From NCBI RefSeq assembly GCF_001429245.1, contig NZ_LMJE01000001.1, positions 1,421,564-1,485,563 on the forward strand: a stretch of DNA of 64,000 nt. The letters run 5' to 3'. The notes under the pieces were generated by a model. The model did no database searches, was not told the DNA's origin, and saw only the letters and a program-made list of their open reading frames with translations. A program made the translations under genes and the position numbers. Shown here piece by piece: positions 15,697-43,869 of this stretch. The stretch is from Rhizobium sp. Root274. GTDB lineage: Bacteria; Pseudomonadota; Alphaproteobacteria; Rhizobiales; Rhizobiaceae. Positions within the stretch are counted from its first letter, which is position 1. Each line of letters starts with the position of its first letter.

Positions 15697-15761
15697 CGGC
15701 GCGCTCCCTTCAAAAGGCGGAGCGGTGACGATCTTACGCAGCAAGGCTGCCGAAAGGACCG

Positions 15762-15837
15762 AACGACTCCCTCCGCCAGCATGATCTGGTTCAGGTTCAA
15801 AGGGTGCTTCTCAGCCCGGCTCTCGCCAGACGCCCCT
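15762..15837 (-). promoter_or_regulatory. TPP riboswitch (THI box) controlling thiD
   Basis: Read on the minus strand, the region shows GGGGCG, then GGGCTGAGA and ACCCTTTGAACCTGA, and finally ATGCTGGCGGAGGGAGTCG. These are the conserved core elements of the thiamine pyrophosphate riboswitch in the right order and spacing. It ends about 65 bases before the thiD start. The expression platform may act by covering the ribosome binding site, since no T-tailed terminator is evident. Confidence 0.93.
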
Positions 15838-15964
15838 GTCTTCTTTCTGTCTAGACCAGTCCGCCGCTCCTGTCACCGGTGGAGCGGCTGCCAATCAATT
15901 CATTTGCCGCCAGCCGCCAAATTGGCTACCTGCCTGTCATCCCCCAAGCATCAGGTGCACGCTC

Positions 15965-41843: not shown

Positions 41844-42206
41844 TTGACGATCAACCGACGCTCTATTTTCACCGTTGCAACTATTGCTGCACTCTGTGCT
41901 TTCGCGCCTCACAGTGCAGATGCCAAGTCTTCCTGCGGTGGTGCCTCCTGGTACGCGCTGCATTCGAAGACCGCTTCCGGTGAACGTATGAACCCGGCAA
42001 CGATGACCGCCGCTCATAAGACCCTGCCGTTTGGAACCAAGGTCAAGGTCACCAATTCCCGCAGCGGCAAGAGCGTCGTGGTGCGCATCAATGACCGCGG
42101 CCCCTTCATCCGTGGCCGTGTGCTCGATCTCTCTAAGGCTGCCGCCCAGAACATCGGCATGGTTCGCTCGGGTCACGCAAAGGTCTGTTACGAGATCATC
42201 GGCTGA
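41844..42206 (+). CDS. RlpA-like double-psi beta-barrel exported protein
   Basis: The 120-aa protein has a signal peptide (about 1-27, ending HSADA), then a double-psi beta-barrel of the RlpA family. [18 protein letters not shown] is the entry strand, and [19 protein letters not shown] is the catalytic-type motif containing the conserved Asp. RlpA proteins bind or cleave denuded peptidoglycan at the septum. There is no SPOR domain here, so septal targeting by that route is absent. The start is TTG at 41844 after AGGGA; no in-frame ATG precedes the signal peptide. Confidence 0.88.
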
Positions 42207-42248
42207 TCTTGCGTCTGGCTCGTTACGGTGTGCGGATGATTACGCTTG

Positions 42249-42519
42249 GAGCCGTTCATTTCTAAATGGAATCAGTTCTGTTGGCTCAAACGGAGTCGCA
42301 TGGTCGACCGGCCGGCGCGTGTCGTAGCCACAGCCTACGGCCAAGCCGGCCGGTCGATCAGGCGGCCCGTTTCAGCTAACCCGAGGGGCCGGGCATCTTT
42401 CCGCCGGGATCAGCGGCGATCGGCTCGCGCATACATCCGGGTATGCACCTCGCCGATCGCCACTGCCCCGACGAAAACCTGCTCCGGCAGAACTGCTTCC
42501 ATTTAAAAATGAACGGCTC
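42249..42519. mobile_element. 271-base terminal-inverted-repeat element with internal hairpins (MITE-like)
   Basis: 32-base terminal inverted repeats at 42249-42280 and 42488-42519 match at 30 of 32 positions. Inside are a 15-bp stem (42302-42316 with 42345-42359, one G-T pair) and a 10-bp perfect stem (42415-42424 with 42452-42461) that itself encloses a 6-bp stem (42429-42434 with 42441-42446). No ORF is credible. CGCTTG occurs just outside the left repeat and 4 bases outside the right one, so a target duplication is not clear. It sits in the gap between the RlpA-like gene and rsmB. Confidence 0.7.
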
Positions 42520-42582
42520 TAGGCGCTTGCCCTCGACCCTGACAGCCGTTACCACGCTCTCTTCTTTCAGAGGAGAATGATC

Positions 42583-43869
42583 ATGCGTCTCGGCGGCCGT
42601 CTTGCCGGTGCGATCGAAGTCTTGGACGATATCGAGACCCGTCGCCGTCCCGTTGCCGATGCCCTCAAGGATTGGGGCCTCGCGCATCGCTTCGCCGGAT
42701 CCGGCGACCGCGCCGCGATTGGGAATATCGTCTATGACGCGCTTCGCATGAAGCTGTCCCACGCCTGGCTGATGGATGACGACAGCGCGCAGGCCCTGGG
42801 CTGGGCCGTGCTGCTGCGGCAATGGGGCATGACACTCGATGCCCTCACGGCGAGTTTCGAAGGCGACAACTTCGCCCCTGCCCCGCTTTCTCCCGAGCAA
42901 ATCGCGGCCTTCTCCTCCCGCGATCTTTCGACTGCCCCACTTCATATCCAGGGCGATATCCCGGATTGGGTGCAGCCGTCTTTCGAGGAAGCCTTCGGAG
43001 ACGACTGGCTTGCAGAAGCCCAGGCGCTTGCCACACGCCCGACCCTTGACCTGCGCGTCAACACGCTGAAGGCCAATAGAGACAAGGTGCTGAAGGCGCT
43101 TGACCGCTCAGGCGCGAAAGCTTCGCCGATCGCCCGTTTCGGGATGCGCGTGCCCGCTGGCGAAGGCCCGTCGCGGCTGCCCAATGTCACCGCCGAACTG
43201 AGCTTTCAGAAGGGATGGTTCGAGGTTCAGGACGAGGGATCGCAGATCGTTGCCGATCTCGTCGATCCCCACGAGGGCCAGCAAGTTCTTGACTTCTGCG
43301 CCGGCGGTGGCGGCAAGACTTTGGCCATGGCAGCGGCCATGAACAACAAGGGCCAGGTGCATGCCTATGACGCCGACCGCAAGCGGCTGGCGCCGATCAT
43401 CGAGCGGCTGAAGCGCGCGGGCACCCATAACGTGCAGGTACATGACAGCGCCAAGGCGCTGGAGAGCCTGAAGGAACGCTTTGACCACGTGCTGGTCGAC
43501 GCCCCGTGCACCGGCACCGGAACCTGGCGGCGGCGCCCCGACACCAAGTGGCGGCTGACCGATCGCAATCTGCAGGAGCGCGTGACCCAGCAGGACGAAG
43601 CCCTGACGGCGGCATCTGCCTTCGTCAAGCCGGGCGGCTCGCTGGTCTATGTCACCTGCTCGGTGCTGCCGGACGAAAACGACCGGCAAGTGCGCGCCTT
43701 CTGTGAGAAAAACCCGGGTTTTGAAATCGTGCCCGTGCTCGACGACTGGAAGCGACTTTTTGGCGCCGCTGCACCGGCGCCGCGCTCGGCCGATGGCAAG
43801 ACGCTGACGCTGAGCCCCGCCAGCATGGATACCGACGGCTTCTTCTTCTGTCGCATGCGGCGCAAGTAA
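42583..43869 (+). CDS. rsmB: RsmB-type RNA (cytosine-C5)-methyltransferase
   Basis: The 428-aa SAM enzyme belongs to the NOL1/NOP2/Sun family that methylates cytosine 967 of 16S rRNA or related sites. It has an N-terminal NusB-like helical part and the SAM-binding motif VLDFCAGGGGKTLAMAAAM (about 245-263). The two catalytic cysteines are in VDAPCTGTGTWRRRPD and VTCSVLPDEN. The ATG at 42583 is preferred over the one 6 bases earlier because AGGAG is then 7 bases away. A TIR element lies upstream and an iron-related operon downstream. Exact rRNA target is inferred from family only. Confidence 0.87.
   Translation: MRLGGRLAGAIEVLDDIETRRRPVADALKDWGLAHRFAGSGDRAAIGNIVYDALRMKLSHAWLMDDDSAQALGWAVLLRQWGMTLDALTASFEGDNFAPAPLSPEQIAAFSSRDLSTAPLHIQGDIPDWVQPSFEEAFGDDWLAEAQALATRPTLDLRVNTLKANRDKVLKALDRSGAKASPIARFGMRVPAGEGPSRLPNVTAELSFQKGWFEVQDEGSQIVADLVDPHEGQQVLDFCAGGGGKTLAMAAAMNNKGQVHAYDADRKRLAPIIERLKRAGTHNVQVHDSAKALESLKERFDHVLVDAPCTGTGTWRRRPDTKWRLTDRNLQERVTQQDEALTAASAFVKPGGSLVYVTCSVLPDENDRQVRAFCEKNPGFEIVPVLDDWKRLFGAAAPAPRSADGKTLTLSPASMDTDGFFFCRMRRK

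Follow-up and report, generated by a model that had tools for sequence, protein, structure and literature searches.

A family of miniature inverted-repeat elements in rhizobia with IS630-like ends and an excess of copies at stop codons

A 271-bp inverted-repeat element lies at positions 42249–42519 of the 64,000-nucleotide stretch of the Rhizobium sp. Root274 genome that was analysed here (the window). It is flanked by two genes on the + strand, an upstream gene for a PF03330 protein (41844–42206), whose stop codon precedes the element by 42 bp, and a downstream gene for an RsmB/F-type rRNA methyltransferase (PF01189; 42577–43869). A first-pass annotation, made from the sequence alone, had placed the element between two genes and described near-identical 32-base ends and two strong internal stems with a nested 6-bp stem, all of which was borne out. 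Alignment of the left (42249–42280, + strand) and right (42488–42519, − strand) terminal inverted repeats, both with a GAGC tip, gave 2/32 mismatches, with arms extendable to 38 nt at 89%. Inward of these lie a first hairpin arm (42280–42380; alignment columns 32–132) and a second (42388–42488; columns 140–242), with internal stems of 20 nt at 90% (42297–42316/42345–42364) and 14 nt at 93% (42411–42424/42452–42465), and the 6-bp stem is present in the fold. The right copy of the TA target is found at 42520–42521, while the place of the left copy (42247–42248) reads TG in the window. In a list of open reading frames of at least 60 aa, selected by length only, an 86-aa frame (42246–42506) fills most of the element; as 271 bp could not accommodate an IS630-type transposase, the element counts as lacking a transposase gene. 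In its shortness, its lack of such a gene and its inverted terminal repeats (30/32), it has the make-up of a MITE.

The layout, previously judged unlikely to arise by chance, folds far better than shuffled sequence, with z values for the window copy of −13.2 (+ strand) and −15.5 (− strand), and 0/200 shuffles as good on either strand. The consensus fold of an alignment of 31 full copies comprises an outer stem formed by the ends with the two arms on top, so that the whole element is, as modelled, a single three-armed and almost fully paired structure, which the first-pass description undersold. Its 98 pairs are standard in 97.8% of alignment cells, and pairing drops to 27–42% when partner columns are slid. 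Changes on both sides were seen in 22 pairs (17.6 in shuffles; 0/500 as high) and 171 cells (61.1 in shuffles; 0/500 as high), while further pair types (53 against 55.0 in shuffles, 478/500 as high) were not above chance. These shuffles leave relatedness in, and the 31-copy alignment was also the source of the structure; covariation by most measures supports the three-armed model. Among the 87 pairs common to the folds of both strands, G–T and A–C departures were equal (20 and 20 column types), and this lack of strand bias makes symmetry of the DNA a simpler and likelier explanation than RNA, so that the symmetry of the internal arms is probably maintained in the DNA itself. Folding energy averaged −178.8 on the − strand and −167.2 on the + strand, which was the lower of the two in 1/31 copies. 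RNA as the main reading was nevertheless dropped, since the changes carry no strand bias. The suggestion that the element could end transcription found no support for the window copy, as positions 42100–42700 contain one weak terminator-like match (− strand, 5 pairs, against 0.4 expected). In an Rfam search of the window at the gathering score the element was unmatched. The sole Rfam match in the window was a TPP riboswitch at 15751–15847 on the − strand.

The genome contains one full and three shortened copies, and the element was matched in 16/60 genomes of the genus, this one included. At E ≤1e-20, 18/297 genomes of the family matched, spread over 7/109 genera; this survey scored two candidates per genome, and its copy counts are therefore lower bounds. 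The proposed check for other copies with conserved ends thus came out positive in the genome itself, the genus and the family. Matching plasmid records numbered 167 (157 Rhizobium, 9 Sinorhizobium and 1 Agrobacterium), and no match was found among the phage records searched. Copies are dispersed and have unrelated flanks: in one genome (G023) three of six full copies are identical, and within each of seven genomes the best-matching two copies are 94.5–100% identical with flanks only about half alike, other within-genome pairs ranging down to 84.9%. Three subfamilies were distinguished, whose ends are just 64–72% alike and whose interiors are 83–89% alike, both arms nevertheless pairing. The element's description was not recognised among the matches listed in literature searches on RIME, MITE, IS630, IS870 and convergent stops, and among the matches listed for four 10-letter end strings, used as text queries, no title looked relevant.

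Comparison with related genomes revealed empty sites. The 1151-bp stretch comprising the element and its flanks was matched in 59/60 genomes and, among the matches listed, was unbroken in the genome under study only. The locus was aligned for 10 of 19 loci, those with the site on the + strand, and nine of these ten relatives have no insert. The site reads (C/T)TAG(G/A)CGCTTG in seven of them and ATAGACGCTTG in two, and the corresponding arrangement in the window is TG-element-TAGGCGCTTG. A single copy kept here in all relatives, named at the outset as the outcome that would speak against mobility, was not seen. The tenth relative (L095, from genome G051) holds an inverted-repeat element of another kind in this intergenic gap (L095:1857–2121; 36-nt arms at 94%, with about 258 bp separating the flanking TAs), which matched one Agrobacterium plasmid record at 96% and one Rhizobium record weakly; a gap of the same size as that of G051 was seen at this locus in G025. 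Two further loci also have empty sites. By coordinates, the flanks of a copy in G009 lie 263–266 bp closer together in 7/7 genomes searched, and those of a 176-bp shortened copy at C1:935348 of the genome under study lie 178–180 bp closer in 6/7, the seventh giving no match. Of the full copies, 25/31 have TA on both sides, 23 of these 25 at YTAR, and six, including the window copy with its left TG, do not. The target-site duplication and empty sites expected of a MITE are thus found in the family, and the MITE reading of the first-pass annotation is backed by the copies, their conserved ends, the TA flanks and the empty sites. Together with the identical copies at unrelated sites, these sequence comparisons support mobility of the element.

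Shortened copies suggest how the element may decay. Two of those in the genome under study consist of bases 1–162 joined to the right-end tip, and the 148-bp copy consists of the first arm between two ends. In G028 a 28-bp palindrome made of two joined ends (near position 1501 of L048; G028 C2:33794) stands at the site of this 148-bp copy, with the neighbouring sequence alike, so that copies appear able to collapse to joined ends. Similar short palindromes occur in G050 and G037. The copies at C1:935348 (L003) and C1:1489072 (L002) of the genome under study lie at different sites and lack the same internal segment; the deleted form was either mobilised or duplicated through recombination. Near position 1959 of L127 (G040 C128), close to a contig end, an element end is broken by an insertion, presumably an IS30-type element.

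Candidates for the transposase were sought among IS630-type insertion sequences. PF13358 had no match in the genome under study, and 36/60 genomes of the genus matched, 34 above the cut-off. One such element, in G035, measures 1047 bp, ends in CTA|GAGC and carries a pair of overlapping ORFs. Among IS630-type loci from named genomes, 70/80 have TA-flanked ends with at most one mismatch from GAGC, in an end search that itself required TA-flanked GAGC-like ends, and 56 of these 70 measure 1045–1048 bp. The insertion target of the IS630-type elements is YTAR in 49/51 tested sites. The right end of the IS matches the right end of the element at a mean of 20.7/32 positions, against 11.4 after shuffling with GAGC held (0/5000 as high), and in the remaining three end comparisons 0, 1 and 3 of 5000 shuffles were as high. 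A left-to-left and right-to-right polarity of the ends was dropped, the right end of the IS being the best match for 31/31 right and 30/31 left ends. When 62 element ends were compared with IS ends the median best match was 20/26 with none near-identical, and the IS630 loci of the genus have at best 22/32 bases in common with the ends of the element. The end pattern of the element was matched in 13/60 genomes of the genus. The genomes and loci searched yielded no IS bearing the ends of the element itself, and in twelve regions around single ends (two shortened by contig ends) no second end was found at IS distance with up to 5 mismatches allowed. Co-occurrence with PF13358 was not significant (12/16 element-bearing genomes against 24/44 others, p 0.23), PF13358 being absent from 4/16 genomes with the element. 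The element interior had no match in 81 IS loci, which means that the element did not arise from any of those by simple deletion. The TA target and IS630-type ends are those of an IS630-mobilised MITE, and on end similarity and target an IS630-type transposase is the likely motor. IS630 elements of Rhizobiales and relatives (for example L106:1383–2429, 1047 bp) are like the element in their TA-flanked GAGC-like ends and differ from it in having transposase ORFs with PF13358, no match to its interior and no significant excess at stop codons.

The position of copies relative to stop codons was then compared with background. As the ends start with GAG beside TA, a TAA or TAG stop that is entered at its TA is restored as TAG, on either strand. 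Among pooled copies, 27/40 close an open frame at the restored TAG, 9/40 on both strands. A first set comprised 25 of the 31 full copies, with the six lacking TA on both sides, L001 (the window copy) included, left out, and gave 18/25 at one or more stops and 7/25 at the stops of both strands. A second set, from other genera, used 15 of 26 loci (L317 lacked a boundary, three failed the end test, six were without two-sided TA and one had a short flank) and gave 9/15 and 2/15, the latter weak when taken alone (p 0.04). Background, taken from 1188 YTAR sites across 800 kb from three genomes, was 335 (28%) for any stop and 24 (2%) for both, open frames of at least 100 codons, not annotated genes, being counted throughout. 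The pooled excess is p 4.8e-7 (any) and 3.5e-7 (both), with copies that share ancestry treated as independent; YTAR copies alone gave 25/36 and 9/36 (p 5.4e-7 and 1.4e-7, copies again taken as independent). The IS630 copies with the required 500-bp flanks (51 of 70) gave 17/51 and 3/51, neither a significant excess over background (p 0.43 and 0.096), and were exceeded by the pooled MITE copies (p 0.0016 for any, 0.028 for both). The window copy is off-pattern, lying past a stop and not at a stop codon, between genes of the same strand. At the G009 copy, by our reading, the stop of the left gene falls at the same codon as the TGA in its relative (G000, the genome under study), and the right gene terminates a little before its end there. 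We infer that the excess arises because a stop (TAA or TAG) entered at its TA is re-formed as TAG, which would spare the gene on either strand, survival of harmless insertions thus acting on top of target choice.

Known systems offer partial parallels. IS870 of Agrobacterium reportedly (Fournier 1993) requires CTAG and acquires a stop codon when it inserts; compared by description, that stop serves the ORF of the IS itself, whereas the element restores the stops of its neighbours. In the available passages on RUP of Streptococcus pneumoniae, this 107-bp repeat has IS630-like ends that pair with each other when it folds, a TA target and IS630-Spn1 as its proposed partner (PMC3049150, PMC2229807). 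RUP so described resembles the element in its small size, IS630-type ends, TA target and paired ends, and differs in its length and phylum and in that those passages mention no insertion into overlapping stops. The passages also describe pneumococcal repeats as over-represented between convergent genes, and BOX repeats as supplying the stop codon of 36 annotated genes (PMC3049150).

Our preferred explanation, in which we have high confidence, is a rhizobial MITE, with a probable IS630-type motor and with the stop excess as a likely result of survival. A transposase of another element, of IS630 type, would move the gene-less MITE into a TA target, and where the TA belongs to TAA or TAG the rebuilt TAG would spare the gene and allow the copy to survive. 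A motor of a different family whose transposases target TA or a CTAG-like site, IS5 for instance, is quite unlikely. The excerpts describing MITEPsy1 of Pseudomonas syringae do tie a MITE with a CTAG or YTAA target, reported to move, to the IS5-family ISPsy2 (PMC3189936), and no exact partner was found in the genomes and loci searched; MITEPsy1 as described there shares with the element its MITE nature and similar target and differs in length (100 bp), duplication (4 nt) and ends, and TA-flanked, GAGC-like ends in a register matching that of the element are a feature of the IS630-type loci (70/80).

Retention of the element at these loci because it functions as a structured RNA or two-way terminator, with mobility old and incidental, could account for the 97.8% standard pairs, the both-side changes (22 pairs against 17.6, 0/500 shuffles as high) and the excess at convergent stops, but we consider it very unlikely: the equal G–T and A–C departures (20, 20) are as DNA symmetry predicts and not a one-strand RNA, Rfam returned no match for the element at the gathering score, the sole terminator-like site is weak, and 9/10 aligned relatives have no element at the window locus. 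Highly improbable is a mosaic repeat spread by recombination without a transposase, of the kind of the RIME, Sm or ABC repeats of Sinorhizobium, which in the partial descriptions compared are likewise rhizobial and intergenic. RIME1 is a rhizobial intergenic repeat with two large palindromes, and shortened and collapsed versions of the element exist, yet the exact ends and TA flanks common to full copies argue against such an origin, as do the Sinorhizobium plasmid records, of which only 9 match the element against 68 that match a 2-kb pSymB control. It is unlikely that the element is adapted to the overlapping stops of convergent genes, its GAG tips rebuilding both, its symmetric body insulating the genes and the hosts keeping it as a spacer.

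On the preferred MITE reading, the element family is a new family of an already known kind. Rhizobial genomics gains a defined MITE family with ends, a target and a candidate motor, which aids annotation and the tracing of recent movement. The divergence of its ends while the arms stay paired raises the question of how inverted-repeat arms change together. The target rule and the first bases of the element would together make such an insertion at a stop codon silent for the neighbouring genes, and the stop result offers a simple, testable reason for the build-up of TA-targeting elements at gene ends.
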